IMG/VR virus record: IMGVR_UViG_3300025674_000348
Span: 1 to 25,510 of that record
DNA: 25,510 bases
Strand: one strand, 5' to 3'
Source of the DNA: a virus
This document shows positions 2,143 to 8,589 of this stretch, piece by piece. The position numbers and the translations under genes are program-made. Below the pieces are notes generated by a model that searched no databases, had not been told where the DNA came from, and saw only the letters and a list, made by a program, of their open reading frames with translations. Position 1 is the first letter of the stretch, and every line of letters starts with the position of its first letter.

Positions 2143-2421
2143 ATGGCAGAAATTAACGAAAACACAAAACTGACTCTGGACATAAAGACTATCGTTATTA
2201 TTCTTTCTGGAATCGTGTCGCTTGTGACGATGTATTTTGCTCTACAAAAGGACATTGAAGAAGCGAAAAGATTGCCAGAACCTGCAATAAGTAGAACGGA
2301 GTACGACTTGAAAGATCAGTTAATACGTGAGACAATAATCAATACACAGCAAAAAGTCGAAGAAAACAGCAAAAAACTGGATAATATAGACTCGAAGCTG
2401 TATGACATAATTAACAAATGA
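2143..2421 (+). CDS. Membrane-anchored coiled-coil protein, spanin-like candidate
   Basis: A 92-residue protein with one hydrophobic helix (about residues 15-34) followed by a charged, heptad-like region (about 52-90) predicted as coiled coil. This single N-terminal anchor plus coiled-coil layout is that of inner-membrane spanins (Rz-like), which help disrupt the outer membrane at lysis. The position supports this: it opens a block with a holin candidate and endolysin, and its stop overlaps the next start as ATGA (2418-2421), implying coupled translation. It contains no recognisable spanin sequence signature, so it could also be a holin accessory or another small membrane protein. Topology is seen in the sequence; the spanin role is inferred. 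Confidence 0.5.
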   Translation: MAEINENTKLTLDIKTIVIILSGIVSLVTMYFALQKDIEEAKRLPEPAISRTEYDLKDQLIRETIINTQQKVEENSKKLDNIDSKLYDIINK

Positions 2422-2741
2422 AAAGCTTGATATACTTTGGTTTCTTTTTCCTTATGCCTTTTTTAGTTAAAGGCCAAGAATTTACATTAGTTCAGATTAA
2501 CGCTAAATGGAATCAAAATAATAGTATTAATCTTAACATATTTGATGATGTCGATTATAGGTTTGCGTATTTAGAAGACCAGAAAACAGATATTAAAAGT
2601 AAAATCAACGCAGTTCCTGTTGTTATATTGTACAAAGGCAACAAGCCTATACATCAATGGAACGCTGATTTGTCTTTCAAATTAGACTTGGAGTGTGAAG
2701 AAATAGAACAAATAATCAATAAACATAGAAAAAATGGCTAA
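2418..2741 (+). CDS. Secreted thioredoxin-fold-like protein lacking the CxxC active site
   Basis: A 107-residue protein with a clear signal peptide (residues 1 to about 19: basic start, phenylalanine-rich core, VKG cut site) and no lipobox Cys. The mature part reads like a shortened thioredoxin. A strand LVQINA (24-29) is followed by KWNQNN (30-35), where thioredoxins have the active-site WCxxC. A helix and strand lead to VP (66-67, the usual cis-Pro position), then a VVILYKGNKP strand pair and a C-terminal helix. The only Cys is residue 93, so it cannot be a dithiol oxidoreductase. It overlaps the upstream gene by 4 bases and the downstream holin candidate by 8, so it belongs to the lysis block and acts in the periplasm. 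The fold is a pattern call; the role is unknown. It might replace an outer-membrane spanin or act as a periplasmic binding or chaperone protein. Confidence 0.5.
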   Translation: MKSLIYFGFFFLMPFLVKGQEFTLVQINAKWNQNNSINLNIFDDVDYRFAYLEDQKTDIKSKINAVPVVILYKGNKPIHQWNADLSFKLDLECEEIEQIINKHRKNG

Positions 2742-3009
2742 AAAATTAGTTCAAGAAAAGGTTCAACAACTTAAATCATGGTATCAATCAAAGACTATTA
2801 TTGGTTTAGTGATATCATCTATTTCTGGTGTAGTGTTTGCTTTGACACAAGGAAAGGTTGATGTTCAAGGAGCTTCAACGGAAATAATCGCTGGTGCAGA
2901 AGAGGTTGCGGTAAGCGCTGACCAAATCATTGCTTCTGTAACTTTCTTTATAGGTCAAGTTGTTGCCTTATGGGGGAGGTTGACTGCAAAGCTTGGTATT
3001 AAAAAGTAA
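2734..3009 (+). CDS. Two-helix holin candidate
   Basis: A 91-residue protein with two hydrophobic helices (about residues 21-38 and 64-82) joined by a short acidic, Ala-rich loop and flanked by basic ends. The WYQSK lead-in to helix 1 and the ALWGRLTAK exit of helix 2 are typical of small phage holins that open the inner membrane to the endolysin. It overlaps the upstream secreted protein by 8 bases, and its TAA shares an A with the endolysin start (TAATG at 3007-3011), the usual holin-endolysin order. Holin is the most likely role by size, topology and position. A second membrane protein after the endolysin (3364) is a competing holin or an antiholin. Confidence 0.65.
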   Translation: MAKKLVQEKVQQLKSWYQSKTIIGLVISSISGVVFALTQGKVDVQGASTEIIAGAEEVAVSADQIIASVTFFIGQVVALWGRLTAKLGIKK

Positions 3010-3371
3010 TGCACTTTAAGTATTTCACATACGAGGAGTTTGACAGCCCAGATATTCAGGGCAGTGGGCAAAATATGTGCGATACTCTTATACAAATGTT
3101 AGATGAGGTTCGAGAAGAGTACGGAAAGCCTATTAGAATTACAAGCGGGTATAGAACAGAAGCTTGGAACCATAAGGTGAATGGAGTTTCTGAATCGGCT
3201 CATTTAAAAGGATTTGCGGCAGACATTGCCGTGAAAAACAGTAGAGAAAGATTTGAACTTCTGTTTTTGCTAATAAAATATAACTTTAATAGAATCGGGA
3301 TTGCAAATACATTCATCCACGTAGATATAGATGATAGTAAAGATCCAGACGTAGTATGGATATATGCCTAA
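3009..3371 (+). CDS. Endolysin, M15-type zinc peptidase (D-Ala-D-Ala carboxypeptidase fold)
   Basis: A 120-residue single-domain peptidoglycan peptidase of the M15_3 kind. Visible zinc ligands are His65 and Asp72 in SAHLKGFAADI and His104 in FIHVDI; the preceding ITSGYRT segment (44-50) is the usual conserved strand and turn. Such enzymes cut the peptide cross-links of the cell wall and serve as endolysins. There is no signal peptide, so export depends on a holin, consistent with the two-helix gene immediately upstream. Length equals one catalytic domain, with no wall-binding module, as expected for a phage of a Gram-negative host. Family assignment is firm; the exact bond cut is inferred. 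Confidence 0.88.
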   Translation: MHFKYFTYEEFDSPDIQGSGQNMCDTLIQMLDEVREEYGKPIRITSGYRTEAWNHKVNGVSESAHLKGFAADIAVKNSRERFELLFLLIKYNFNRIGIANTFIHVDIDDSKDPDVVWIYA

Positions 3372-3810
3372 AAAAAAGTTCAAAGACACGAAAGTCGGAC
3401 GCTTCTTGGTGTCCAAAAACGGATTAGCTGGTGCGTTAGCAGACAGCATTCCAGATAAAGGCTTATTAGGCCTTGTAAAGAACCTTATAACCCAAGATGA
3501 TGGTTTGACCCCTCAAGACAAAGAAACCGCTTTTAAACTCCTTGAAATGGATTCTATGGAGATGGATGGCGTAACTAAAAGATGGGAAGCAGATGCAAAT
3601 AGCGATGTAAAGCTTACAAAGATAGCTAGACCGCTTATTGTTTTGTATTTGACTTTTGCTCTTAGTATTTATATTGTTTTGGATTCCTTAGAAATATTTT
3701 CTGTTGATGACAAGTGGGTAAATTTATTGACTACCTTAGTTACAACTGTTTATGTTGCGTATTTTGGTTCTAGAGGAATTGAAAAATATGCTGCTAATAA
3801 AAACAAATAG
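3364..3810 (+). CDS. Holin-like membrane protein (GTA-holin-3TM-like)
   Basis: A 148-residue protein with a soluble, basic then mixed-charge N-terminal half and two hydrophobic helices at about 88-107 and 118-135. The first opens after an ARP motif (88-90), and the second ends in AYFGSRGIEKY. This C-terminal pattern resembles the holin family seen in gene transfer agents and many Bacteroidota phages. It overlaps the endolysin by 8 bases and ends 2 bases before the long fibre gene. It may be the main holin, with the 2734 gene as a partner, or the reverse. I cannot decide from sequence alone. Confidence 0.6.
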   Translation: MPKKKFKDTKVGRFLVSKNGLAGALADSIPDKGLLGLVKNLITQDDGLTPQDKETAFKLLEMDSMEMDGVTKRWEADANSDVKLTKIARPLIVLYLTFALSIYIVLDSLEIFSVDDKWVNLLTTLVTTVYVAYFGSRGIEKYAANKNK

Positions 3811-3812
3811 GA

Positions 3813-6767
3813 ATGGCCAGGATTAGTACATACCCTAATGATAATAGAATATCTCTAGAAGATAAGTGGATAGGTACAGATTCTGTTGGAATAACAACAA
3901 AGAATTTTACGGTTGAAAGCTTATTTGTTTATTTTCAAGAAAACTTGTCTGTAGATGTAGGTGAACTTGCAGTTATAGAGAGTTTACAAGATAGATTAGA
4001 TGAAATAGAGACTGAATTTACTTTGAATTCAGGAGATATTACAGGTCTTAGTATATCTAGTGTTATTAAGTCGTATGTAGACACTCAGATAAGCGGCATA
4101 AATCAAGTAACTCCTGAGCAGTCAACTAAAATCGAAACGTCTTATGGGTGGGGTAATCATGCATTGGCAGGTTACTTGACATCAGAGACCGATCCTACGG
4201 TTCCTCCTCATGTAAAAAATATTACCAGCACAGATGTTAGTGAGTGGGACAGTGCTTATACTAATATGATTACGGGCATTGATATTACTGAAAATAGTGA
4301 TGGAAGTCAGAAAATCGTAACTCTTTTAAGAGCTAATGCTGGAAGCAATTTATCAGATTCGTTTACAGATATTTCTGAAACAGGACAAGGAGGTATAACT
4401 GACACTAATTATTATTTAAACGGGGCCTCTCTTGATGCTAATGGAAACCTAAATCTTACTGTACAAGGCGCGGCTGATCAAAGTGTAAATCTAGACGCTA
4501 GGTATTACACTGAATCAGAAATAAACTCTTTTAATTATATAGCCCTTGCAAATTTAAGCGTAGGGCCTAAGGCTACCGCCTCTGGAGACGGAGATGTTTC
4601 TTATGATAATTCTACAGGAGTTTTTACTTACACCCCTCCAGACTTTTCAGGAGATTATCTTCCTATCGCAGGGGGAACAATGACGGGGTTTATTGATTTC
4701 AGTACAGAGTCGATAGGTTTGAGAGGAGACATTTATAATGAAGATTCTACTAAGATATTACAAAACGGTTCTGATAGTGCAGAAGCCTGGTACAAAGGAA
4801 GGCTTATAGGGGACATAACAGACGCCAGTTTAAATCTTATATATGATTCTTCTACAGGTTCTTTTCATAAAGACCTGTATATGTACAAAGATTCTGATGA
4901 GGAATACGATATTGTTCTAGGGTATACAGCTCAAATAGATTTCACTAACGACAGGACTAACCCTCAGTCGCCTATAGAAACGTTAACGGCTGCCAAGATA
5001 TCCACTTGGGATTCCTTAGAGCCTATAGCGAACATGTATTTCTTCGAAGAAGGAAGTACAGACACTTTTAGGTTAAGACTAAGAAAACAAACAGACTCTC
5101 TTTCTACAAACACAAGCGTTCTTATTAAAAAAGGGTCTTACATGACAATGTCTGTTGATGACGACCCTAATGATAATTATACTGTTAGCGGGACTACGAT
5201 AGGAGCCTTAAACATAGGGCTTAACTATACTGGACTACAAAATCAATTAGACACTATATATGCCCGTTCTGGTTCTGTTGTCTCAGACATCACTGTTAAT
5301 GGTATTAGCTCAATGACAGGAACAGTTGATTTTGAAAGCGGCAGCGGAATCACCGTCGGTAAGGACGGAGCTAATAGTAGGCTTACTTTTAATTTTGATA
5401 ATTCTTCTTTAGGGTTTATTACAAACGCACAAGAAACAGATCCAATTTTTAGCGCTTCAGCTGCAAGTGGGATAACTTCTACTAATATAACGGAGTGGAA
5501 TAACGCTTATAATAAGTACACTACAGGTGTTCAGTTTGTGACAGGAACAGGGGGTGCTGTTTCAACTCGTCTTTTAAAGAGAGACAATACAACTGTTACC
5601 ACAGCTGACAATATAACTTCTTCAAATGGAATCGTCCTGACTGCTTCAAGTAATGATCTTAATATATCAGCAGATTCTAACGTGCTTGCCACTAAAAGTT
5701 ATTTGGACACAAACTTTGCCTTGTCTTCTGCTCTTCCAACTGCTCAGGAAGAACAAAACTGGGATACGGCTTATATTAATATTGTCACAGGGCTGGAGTT
5801 TAACACAACTACAGGCGTCCTTACATTGCAAAAAACTAATGGCTCCGATTTAACAAAAAATTTAGATGGAAGGTATTTAACAACTCACCCTGCTGTTGCA
5901 AACGTTCCTGCGAACTCTAACAACTCAGGAAATACTTTTATACAAGATATTGGGTTTGACACTTTTGGTCACGTCAATAACTTAGCAACAGGCACTGTGA
6001 CTGAATCTGATCCTGTGTTCTCTGCATCTGCTGCTGGAGGCATACAAAGCACTGATATATCAGAGTGGGATTCTGCTTATTCGGCTAAAATAAATTCAAT
6101 AGAAGTCGACCTTACCACTGGAACTGACGGAGGTAAAGTTGTTTTGACTAGGCAAGATAATACTCCTTTAAAAAGCTCTTCTTTTGACACCAGGTATTTA
6201 AGAGTTCATCCTGCCACTGCACCTCAGGCAGCTACTAGTGTAAATAATACAGGAAACACTTTTATACAAGATATCTCTTTTGATAGTTTTGGTCATGTTA
6301 CAGCCATTGATAGTGTGGCGGTTAGCGGATTTCTTTCGTTGGCTGCAAATCAAACCATGGTAGATGGTCATATTGCTGTTTTTGATTCAGCAGGAGACAT
6401 TGAAGTGTCTTCTATATCCTCAGTACTTCCTGCGGGTATAGTGTATACAACAGGAAGCCCTAACTTTGGATCAAACACAATTACTGCTGGAGACTTTATA
6501 TTGAGTTCTGATAGAGATCTTAAGGAAAATATAATACCTTTATCTGACAGAAAGATTGATGTAGACTTTAAAGAATATAATTTTAAGGGGAGTAAAAGAA
6601 CTAGATTTGGGGTTATTGCTCAAGATTTGGAAGAAAAACATCCAGAGTTTGTGCATACCAGAGAAGGAGGAGAGAAAAGCGTTTCGTATATTGACCTTTT
6701 AGTAGCGAAAGTTCACGAACTTGAAAATAGAATTAAAGAATTAGAAAGTGGCAGTAGGAACAGGTAA
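3813..6767 (+). CDS. Long tail fibre/spike with C-terminal S74 intramolecular chaperone
   Basis: A 984-residue fibre protein. The N-terminal 120 residues (with a short helical stretch near 55-70) probably attach to the virion. The middle is Ser/Thr/Asn-rich beta material built from repeats: an (E/T)(T/S)DP...EW(D/N).AY unit occurs at about residues 124, 540 and 730, and a RYL..HP...N.(S/T)GNTFIQDI.FD.FGHV unit at 687 and 794. The last 87 residues form a peptidase S74 (endosialidase-type) chaperone domain. It starts at SSDRDLKENI, with Ser899 and Lys904 at the spacing of the self-cleavage pair, and includes GVIAQDLEEKHPEFV. A coiled-coil end follows. This domain trimerises the fibre and then cuts itself off before Ser899. 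Its last 20 bases overlap the next gene. Confidence 0.85.
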   Translation: MARISTYPNDNRISLEDKWIGTDSVGITTKNFTVESLFVYFQENLSVDVGELAVIESLQDRLDEIETEFTLNSGDITGLSISSVIKSYVDTQISGINQVTPEQSTKIETSYGWGNHALAGYLTSETDPTVPPHVKNITSTDVSEWDSAYTNMITGIDITENSDGSQKIVTLLRANAGSNLSDSFTDISETGQGGITDTNYYLNGASLDANGNLNLTVQGAADQSVNLDARYYTESEINSFNYIALANLSVGPKATASGDGDVSYDNSTGVFTYTPPDFSGDYLPIAGGTMTGFIDFSTESIGLRGDIYNEDSTKILQNGSDSAEAWYKGRLIGDITDASLNLIYDSSTGSFHKDLYMYKDSDEEYDIVLGYTAQIDFTNDRTNPQSPIETLTAAKISTWDSLEPIANMYFFEEGSTDTFRLRLRKQTDSLSTNTSVLIKKGSYMTMSVDDDPNDNYTVSGTTIGALNIGLNYTGLQNQLDTIYARSGSVVSDITVNGISSMTGTVDFESGSGITVGKDGANSRLTFNFDNSSLGFITNAQETDPIFSASAASGITSTNITEWNNAYNKYTTGVQFVTGTGGAVSTRLLKRDNTTVTTADNITSSNGIVLTASSNDLNISADSNVLATKSYLDTNFALSSALPTAQEEQNWDTAYINIVTGLEFNTTTGVLTLQKTNGSDLTKNLDGRYLTTHPAVANVPANSNNSGNTFIQDIGFDTFGHVNNLATGTVTESDPVFSASAAGGIQSTDISEWDSAYSAKINSIEVDLTTGTDGGKVVLTRQDNTPLKSSSFDTRYLRVHPATAPQAATSVNNTGNTFIQDISFDSFGHVTAIDSVAVSGFLSLAANQTMVDGHIAVFDSAGDIEVSSISSVLPAGIVYTTGSPNFGSNTITAGDFILSSDRDLKENIIPLSDRKIDVDFKEYNFKGSKRTRFGVIAQDLEEKHPEFVHTREGGEKSVSYIDLLVAKVHELENRIKELESGSRNR
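4182..6101 (+). repeat. Three dispersed copies of an EW-type fibre repeat
   Basis: Within the fibre gene, units beginning near 4182, 5430 and 6000 encode a (S/Q/T)E(T/S)DP segment followed about 17 residues later by EW(D/N)(S/N)AY. The second and third copies are closest, both with FSASAA after the DP. They are diverged at DNA level, so they reflect protein domain repetition and not recent duplication. Confidence 0.6.
5871..6323 (+). repeat. Two copies of a 43-44 residue fibre repeat (GNTFIQDI..FD.FGHV)
   Basis: Copies at 5871-5999 and 6192-6323 share an RYL..HPA opening, NN(S/T)GNTFIQDI in the middle and FD(T/S)FGHV towards the end. Both lie just before the S74 chaperone domain, so they probably form the distal shaft or tip and are candidates for receptor contact. 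Confidence 0.65.
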
Positions 6768-7533: not shown

Positions 7534-7755
7534 ATGCATATAAGAAAGATATCCATTGGCAATAGCTATAAGGAGGGTATGCACTATGTTGTAGGACAAG
7601 AAGTGCTAAATGGCACATACAAAATACACTTGATTGACTTCAATGAAGAACGTCAGTCTTATACTCTTTACGTGGCTAAAGACAATGAAATCTTTTTATG
7701 GAAAGAATTTAATAATTCATTACCTACTTCAATAGAATATAATATTAATTTATAA
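7534..7755 (+). CDS. Small hypothetical protein
   Basis: A 73-residue protein of unknown function, predicted mostly beta strand (KIHLIDF, YTLYVAK, EIFLWKEF segments) with no signal peptide or membrane helix. It lies one base after the coiled-coil gene, and its stop overlaps the next start as TAATG (7753-7757), which points to coupled translation with the GroES-like candidate downstream. Confidence 0.6.
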   Translation: MHIRKISIGNSYKEGMHYVVGQEVLNGTYKIHLIDFNEERQSYTLYVAKDNEIFLWKEFNNSLPTSIEYNINL

Positions 7756-8318
7756 TGCGATCTCCTTATCGATTTTTAATACGACCAAAGGGCGAAGCCT
7801 ACAATAATGAAATCGAAATAGCTGGACAAAAGATTGTAATAAACTCAACGCTTGATAATCATATGAATGTCAATCGTTTTGCTGAGGTTATTTCAACTCC
7901 AACCTATTACGAAGGCTTTATAAAAGAAGGCGACACCCTGGTTGTTCACCACAATATATTTAGAATATATCATGACATGAAAGGCAGGCCTCGTAAGTCT
8001 CCAAATTATTTCATGGATGATATATACATGATAACGCCTTTGCAGTTTTATCTGTATCATGACGGAAAAGACTGGAAATCAGTAGATCAGTATTGTTTCG
8101 TTCGTCCTATAGATAAAGAAAATTCTTATCTTTATGAAGAAGGAGAAGAAGAAAACACAGGAGTTGTAGTATATTCAAACCCTTCCCTAGAGTCTCTGGA
8201 CATATATACTGGGAGTAAGGTAAATTTCACTAAAAACAGTGAATATGAGTTTACAATTAATGACCAGAAGATGTACAGAATGAGGACGAATGATATATGT
8301 GTATTGTTAAATGAGTGA
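7755..8318 (+). CDS. GroES-like co-chaperonin candidate
   Basis: A 187-residue beta-rich protein. Its C-terminal part (about residues 136-187) follows the layout of the GroES end: a GVVVYSN strand, a GSKVNFTKNSEYEF segment where co-chaperonins have the GD.V.F..Y.G stretch, and an MRTNDICVLL final strand like the EDILAV end of GroES. The N-terminal part has FAEVISTP (42-49) and an IKEGDTLVVHHNIF segment (56-69) that may be a diverged half of the same barrel, plus a disordered-looking insert rich in basic residues (76-84). Large phages such as T4 (gp31) carry a GroES stand-in to fold the capsid protein, and the location just upstream of packaging and capsid genes fits. Similarity is weak and unverified; it could be another beta-barrel virion protein. 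Confidence 0.4.
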   Translation: MRSPYRFLIRPKGEAYNNEIEIAGQKIVINSTLDNHMNVNRFAEVISTPTYYEGFIKEGDTLVVHHNIFRIYHDMKGRPRKSPNYFMDDIYMITPLQFYLYHDGKDWKSVDQYCFVRPIDKENSYLYEEGEEENTGVVVYSNPSLESLDIYTGSKVNFTKNSEYEFTINDQKMYRMRTNDICVLLNE

Positions 8319-8589
8319 CACAAATAAAATTAAAGAGCAGATAATAGAGGCTGGAAGAAAAGCTGTGCAGCAACTTATAAGGGTTGCGGAAGAAGATATT
8401 ATAAAGCCAGACCCTGAAGACGAATTGGCCGCAGACAGACTTAAAAATGCTGCAGCTACAAAGAAACTAGCCATATTTGATGCTTTTGAAATACTAAATA
8501 GGATTGAGAACGAAAAGAATATGCTTGATGACCCAAAAAAAGAAAGCGAAAAACTAACAGGTGGTTTTGCTGAAAGAAGATCTAAATGA
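8311..8589 (+). CDS. Small terminase subunit candidate
   Basis: A 92-residue, highly charged helical protein. The central ADRLKNAAATKKLAIFDAF segment (about 41-59) and the GFAERRSK end read like a small conserved protein found just before TerL in Bacteroidota phages. TerS proteins recognise phage DNA and control TerL, and they usually lie here, but no helix-turn-helix is obvious. The gene overlaps the previous one by 8 bases and the next by ATGA (8586-8589). The role is inferred mostly from position. Confidence 0.4.
   Translation: MSDTNKIKEQIIEAGRKAVQQLIRVAEEDIIKPDPEDELAADRLKNAAATKKLAIFDAFEILNRIENEKNMLDDPKKESEKLTGGFAERRSK

Follow-up and report, generated by a model that had tools for sequence, protein, structure and literature searches.

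Two-component spanins have been surveyed by Kongari et al., who found periplasmic cysteines in 507 of the 528 known pairs, counted Bacteroides phage B124-14 among the spanin-less phages, together with Croceibacter phages P2559S and P2559Y, and pointed out that other topologies or anchors could serve as spanins (PMC6139136). Among flavobacterial phages from the North Sea, a possible unimolecular spanin was annotated in two, and for most of the others an endolysin with nearby transmembrane (TM) proteins was reported (PMC8776804). In the T/RI system of phage T4, the short N-terminus of T is cytoplasmic and leads into a single TM segment and a periplasmic domain, while RI is made with a cleavable signal peptide and is soluble in the periplasm (PMC11413866).

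The DNA analyzed here (the window) is an entire IMG/VR virus record of 25,510 bases, which is likely a fragment. The large terminase matched 87 phage records, with the closest match (64%) to an unclassified phage from a spring; since 86 of the 87 were from phages of Flavobacterium, Cellulophaga, Tenacibaculum or Maribacter, the host is probably a flavobacterium and thus Gram-negative. The secreted protein of ORF 2418-2741 is referred to as c1 and the product of the upstream ORF 2143-2421 as c0. The following features were assigned in the region:

2143-2421, + strand: c0, a 92-aa bitopic membrane protein directly upstream of c1, i-spanin-like partner (from its sequence)
2299-2328, + strand: codons of the c0 motif E53-Y-D-L-K-D-x-x-I-R62, near-invariant in the c0 alignment
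2418-2741, + strand: c1, 107 aa, predicted secreted redox-dead thioredoxin-fold protein (ORF, predicted structure, PDB fold matches)
2418-2474, + strand: predicted c1 signal peptide, residues 1-19, of the signal-peptidase-I type (family consensus [A/S]-x-[S/A], cut before Q)
2508-2522, + strand: c1 W31-N-Q-N-N35 at the N-terminal end of the first helix, in place of WCxxC (alignment, predicted structure)
2571-2582, + strand: c1 L52-E-D-Q55, closing the second strand; near-invariant at L52 and Q55 (alignment)
2613-2618, + strand: c1 V66-P67, cis-Pro position (P67 in 99/99 relatives)
2658-2675, + strand: c1 W81-N-A-D-L-S86, a conserved loop (alignment) that, matched by hand, probably corresponds to the G92-A-L-S95 side of the thioredoxin groove
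2734-3009, + strand: 91-aa membrane protein with holin-like hydrophobic segments and only weak PHROG matches
3009-3371, + strand: M15 peptidase endolysin (Pfam PF08291, E 2.6e-19; PHROG endolysin, 3.4e-33)
3364-3810, + strand: holin (phrog_3427 holin, E 1.4e-15)
3813-6767: 984-aa repetitive fibre-like protein with a C-terminal intramolecular chaperone (Peptidase_S74, E 4e-08)

IMG/VR was scanned with the c1 protein, the family alignment and an alignment of C-terminal parts, and each larger scan contributed its best 80 loci. ORF 2418-2741 is not a chance ORF, because relatives were found in well over 100 viral contigs; these showed 24-79% identity across the mature domain. The first 4 bases of the c1 gene (ATGA, 2418-2421) are also the last 4 of the c0 gene, and its last 8 bases (2734-2741) are shared with the downstream gene. 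Residues 4-17 of c1 are hydrophobic and are followed by VKG, with Q after the predicted cut; among 99 relatives, position 19 was S or A in 76 and position 20 was Q in 81. The only Cys, Cys93, falls in a variable column, where relatives carry K, V, L, E, P or R. An earlier note, made from the window alone, had described this ORF as having a signal peptide, WNQNN at residues 31-35, a VP position, a single Cys93 and overlaps with both neighbors, and this description was borne out on re-reading. Its placing of the ORF between a spanin-like and a holin-like gene also agrees with c0 upstream and the 91-aa membrane protein downstream.

The note had further proposed a thioredoxin fold, and the predicted structure has that fold. 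AlphaFold2 modeling of full-length c1 with 23 sequences gave a beta-alpha-beta-alpha-beta-beta-alpha order with a pLDDT of about 89 for the mature part, and modeling of mature c1 with 98 relatives gave a pLDDT of 92.3 and a pTM of 0.82. Compared to full thioredoxin, the first beta-alpha unit is missing. A first fold search of the PDB returned 93 matches at E<=0.001, and the 50 listed were thioredoxins or thioredoxin-containing entries (probability 1.00), a few of which carry only the names of fusion partners or complexes; 1t7p, which we take to be T7 DNA polymerase with thioredoxin, was among them. A second search with a shorter model again returned thioredoxin-family chains, with a TM-score on the query of up to 0.67 and just two matches at E<=0.001. 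Thus, the modeling supports c1 as a redox-dead thioredoxin fold. In a viral structure library, unnamed matches at up to 40% identity were found, and a few family members therefore sit unannotated in UniProt.

Conservation was counted over 99 non-redundant c1 relatives (80% identity clusters). Column 31 was W in 97, column 32 was N in 97 (one T and one V otherwise), column 35 was N or H in 97 (A or K in the remainder) and Q55 was present in 97. No Cys was found at either active-site column in these 99 relatives, and the CxxC or CxxS active site by which a thiol-disulfide oxidoreductase would be recognized was found in none of them; the redox centre is thus absent throughout the relatives examined, as had been claimed for c1 itself. 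Among 177 distinct relatives, 95 contained no mature Cys and 82 contained one. The first searches had used QINAKWN-type patterns that contain the motif, and the motif was re-checked in independently fetched relatives: WNxx[N/H] was retained in 74/74 loci fetched through c0 alone, and relatives fetched by C-terminal patterns or by c0 only ruled out a pattern-search artefact.

The conserved c1 positions cluster at N28/W31/N32/N35, L52/Q55, V66-P67 and A83-S86 and correspond to the substrate groove of thioredoxin, A83-S86 having been matched by hand to G92-A-L-S95 of Escherichia coli thioredoxin. It appears that the groove was kept as a binding site once the chemistry was gone. Such strong conservation of groove residues would also be expected if c1 were still an enzyme, that is, a monothiol or Cys-independent oxidoreductase or a chaperone acting via another residue; this is very improbable, however, given that no relative has an active-site Cys and that in more than half the mature part lacks Cys altogether.

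Single-sequence searches of Pfam, PHROGs, NCBIfam and the PDB with c1 gave no significant match, and the c1 family had no confident match in Pfam, NCBIfam or PHROGs. The Pfam Thioredoxin model (PF00085) did not match c1 and scored a close relative at 13.4 bits, against a cut-off of 23.5 bits. With DUF6568 (PF20207), 11 of 23 relatives gave matches, but even the best (E 1.3e-4) stayed under the cut-off of the model, and this assignment was not used. No match was found by tblastn of five family members, nor of c0, against 50,697 phage records. In a bacterial genome collection, c1 was found on two MAG contigs, L113 (Gammaproteobacteria MAG MED690) and L114 (Crocinitomicaceae MAG MED692), both short and with the look of phage contigs that ended up in bacterial bins; L113 agrees with IMG/VR contig 2778260961_000001 in length and coordinates. 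Of 299 sampled genomes of one order, only one matched, through one of these two contigs, and a prophage origin was thus not supported. The phages that carry c1 probably infect marine flavobacteria.

The c0 protein is predicted to consist of a short N-terminus, one TM segment (about residues 16-34) and a helical, coiled-coil-like tail. The charge bias favored an N-in orientation in 104 of 172 c0 proteins, opposed it in 15 and was neutral in 53, which mildly favors N-in, C-out. Some c0 copies (L097:5702-6004, L067:6831-7127 and similar) carry a DxDGDGKxD calcium-binding-type loop ahead of the TM segment, and either topology would be possible for these copies. The near-invariant c0 segment is PxPxxxRxEYDLKDxxxR.

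A c0 gene was found directly upstream of all 104 distinct c1 proteins with room upstream, and the sole further case with room, a frame-shifted copy, also had c0. In public virus contigs, c0 lay directly upstream of c1 at all 171 distinct loci with both genes resolved. The 4-base ATGA overlap was shared by 122 of 173 tabulated pairs, and nearly all others were at most 5 bases apart. In a reciprocal search by c0 alone, the next gene was c1 for 160 of 172 distinct c0 genes with room downstream among the matches listed; the other 12 were second copies in loci already holding c0-c1. More distant c0 relatives may include exceptions to the pairing. At least one c0 in each of the 171 loci holding both genes carried the motif [EQ][YF]x[LFYIM]K[DE]xx[IVL]R. 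Loci fetched through c0 had been chosen by c0 patterns, which biases motif counts; the unbiased count comes from the loci fetched by c1 without any selection on c0, and here the EYDLKD-type motif was present in 107/107. In 12 loci the upstream c0 lacked the motif and a motif-bearing second c0 directly followed c1.

Both the reciprocal pairing and the motif retention are the pattern that an obligate complex would give. The pairing itself is well supported, and c0-c1 is apparently a new, obligate gene pair whose two products very probably bind each other. Among the fetched loci, no natural c0-c1 fusion was found. Mirror-tree analysis gave a c0-c1 distance correlation of 0.53, not above that of c1-endolysin (0.585) or c1-holin (0.543), and the c0 motif and the c1 groove showed no special regional co-variation.

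Two loci contain two c0-c1 pairs each (L006:4604-5271 and 7696-8321; L170:3713-4353 and 5549-6174), and because of this the pair appears to move as a unit. In the extra c1 copies of these loci QINAKWN is replaced by QFSA[PE]F[TV], with F for W and no Cys at the site, and the second c1 of L006 showed weak similarity to Pfam Thioredoxin (E 4.5e-4). Besides, at L012:5066-5685, L015:1994-2616 and similar loci, c0-c1 is followed by a second c0 and then by an HMA (heavy-metal-associated, PF00403) protein that is small, probably secreted and contains CxxC; c0 may be able to partner more than one type of small periplasmic domain.

Gene context was scored within 3.5 kb at 61 distinct loci whose flanks reached at least 1.5 kb upstream and 2.5 kb downstream, family labels other than M15 and the holin of the window being taken from reading representative sequences. 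An endolysin family (M15, amidase or DUF5675-like protein) was found at 41 loci, a holin-like family at 42 and either of the two at 49; at the remaining 12, neither was recognized. The c0-c1 pair thus sits usually, but not always, in a lysis block. The c1 gene is tied to the upstream c0 rather than to lysis genes as such.

At five of these 12 loci the pair lies between portal-like and protease/capsid-like genes; together with the seven others, they fit a reading in which c0-c1 is a late-made envelope complex with no part in lysis, serving for instance superinfection exclusion or protection of the envelope of the infected cell. Exclusion systems commonly use small membrane or periplasmic proteins. 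Most c0-c1 loci, however, adjoin endolysin and holin genes, and both genes are strictly retained in phages that differ widely, as one would expect of a core function more than of exclusion genes, which leaves this reading with perhaps one chance in four. The location of the pair within the late structural region of many contigs would also suit virion or DNA-delivery components, but a cleavable Sec signal peptide would export c1 from the cytoplasm, where virions assemble, and c0 is a membrane protein; we consider such a role highly unlikely.

The predicted topology of c0-c1 equals that of T/RI, with a single TM segment and a periplasmic part in one protein and a cleavable signal peptide in the other, and by its sequence c1 would be soluble and unlipidated like RI. 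The pair could on this basis be a holin and an antiholin, with c0 as a single-TM holin and c1 as a periplasmic binder that delays lysis. Such an identity is unlikely, however: a separate holin family is close by in many loci, including the window, c0 has a short coiled-coil-like tail rather than a globular domain, and an antiholin should be dispensable, whereas c1 was not lost from c0 in the sampled loci. RI is moreover helical and not of the thioredoxin fold.

A two-part device of inner membrane and periplasm, encoded among late genes and usually beside endolysin and holin genes, suggests a spanin-like role. As the earlier note had stated, c1 has no lipobox, and none was found in any of 177 relatives. 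No lipobox ORF was found on the coding strand of the window, and only 8 of 118 c1 loci had one in the 1.5 kb before or the 2 kb after c1; these scans thus gave no support to a hidden lipoprotein in the role of true o-spanin. Nine longer c0-c1 contigs (34-43 kb) were also scanned, and six had no lipobox ORF in any frame, although these contigs are fragments and missing lipoproteins there are no proof of absence. The only lipobox ORFs of contig G303 were two of 52 aa on the strand opposite c0, G302 had one of 103 aa, likewise on the opposite strand, and G306 had a lipoprotein gene directly after c1.

A small lipoprotein gene of one of two families was found directly after c1 at a few loci (L057:6312-6572, L191:4581-4844, L222:4619-4960, L248:4608-4967), and could encode a third, outer-membrane component. 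Relatives of the phage of the window that lack c0-c1 have, near the endolysin, a protein whose N-terminus has a hydrophobic segment and whose C-terminus is beta-rich (L255:15476-16099, MW202828; L256:18189-18734, Flavobacterium elemo phage); these are possible unimolecular spanins, anchored otherwise than by a lipobox. In Cellulophaga phage phi19:3 (L257:14498-15050), an overlapping gene pair lies beside a glycosyl hydrolase; the first product has a TM-plus-helix layout and the second a possible signal peptide and a C-terminal hydrophobic segment, making a spanin-like pair without an obvious lipobox.

The best overall explanation, to which we give slightly less than an even chance, is that c0 and c1 form an obligate complex that acts as a spanin-like envelope device without a lipoprotein. 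In such a device c0 would be the inner-membrane anchor, its helical tail extending into the periplasm, and c1 would be exported, cut by signal peptidase I and soluble in the periplasm, serving there as a binding domain without redox chemistry. The two proteins would bind as an obligate complex. If the former substrate groove of c1 (formed by the four conserved clusters) grips anything, it would most likely be an extended peptide, for which the PxPxxxRxEYDLKDxxxR segment of c0 is the best candidate; peptide binding by the groove is about an even bet. The complex would be made late and target the envelope, with c1 substituting for the outer-membrane lipoprotein. A role in lysis or outer-membrane disruption is plausible, likewise at slightly less than an even chance.

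Against the spanin-like reading, no outer-membrane anchor is visible in c1, and for this reason its route to the outer membrane is unexplained; a fifth or so of the loci (12/61) have no recognized lysis gene nearby; and more than half of the c1 proteins lack Cys, whereas most two-component spanins have periplasmic Cys. Of the proposal in the earlier note, the thioredoxin fold, the missing redox centre, the predicted secretion and the lack of a lipobox are supported, while the lysis role is putative. By its sequence, c1 may act like a spanin, yet the lipobox test places it outside the two-component spanins. A more general proposal, that Bacteroidota phages without lipobox spanins break the outer membrane by an inner-membrane rod and a redox-dead thioredoxin docking through its old groove, as a lipid-free spanin, is doubtful but possible.

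These results suggest a two-part envelope machine, plausibly for lysis, that has not been described before, and no publication in the library searched joins thioredoxin fold, phage and spanin. Current annotation passes over the c1 family, because there was neither a confident Pfam, NCBIfam or PHROG match nor a tblastn match in the phage records. A widespread and strictly paired membrane rod and redox-dead thioredoxin is a concrete candidate for the missing part in 'spanin-less' phages (PMC6139136).

Compared to two-component spanins such as lambda Rz/Rz1 and T4 PseT.3/PseT.2, c0-c1 has the same adjacent, overlapping genes, usually near an endolysin and a holin, and a similar predicted layout, in which the first partner, small and bitopic, spans the inner membrane and has a helical part in the periplasm and the second partner is secreted; c1 differs in having no lipobox (0/177), a globular thioredoxin fold and often no Cys. 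With T4 T/RI the pair shares, in predicted topology only, a single-TM protein with a periplasmic part and a soluble signal-peptide protein, but differs in its strict adjacency and co-retention, in its folds and in the separate holin family that is often present. As a new redox-dead member of the thioredoxin fold, c1 resembles thioredoxin (E. coli TrxA, PF00085) in fold, strand order, the Trp before the active-site turn, the invariant cis-Pro position and the conserved groove loops, and differs in WNxx[N/H] for WCxxC, the missing first beta-alpha unit, the signal peptide and a score below the Pfam cut-off. Use of a thioredoxin as a binding part and not as a redox enzyme is known from T7 DNA polymerase, where the thioredoxin, unlike c1, is cytoplasmic, host-encoded and has its CxxC intact.
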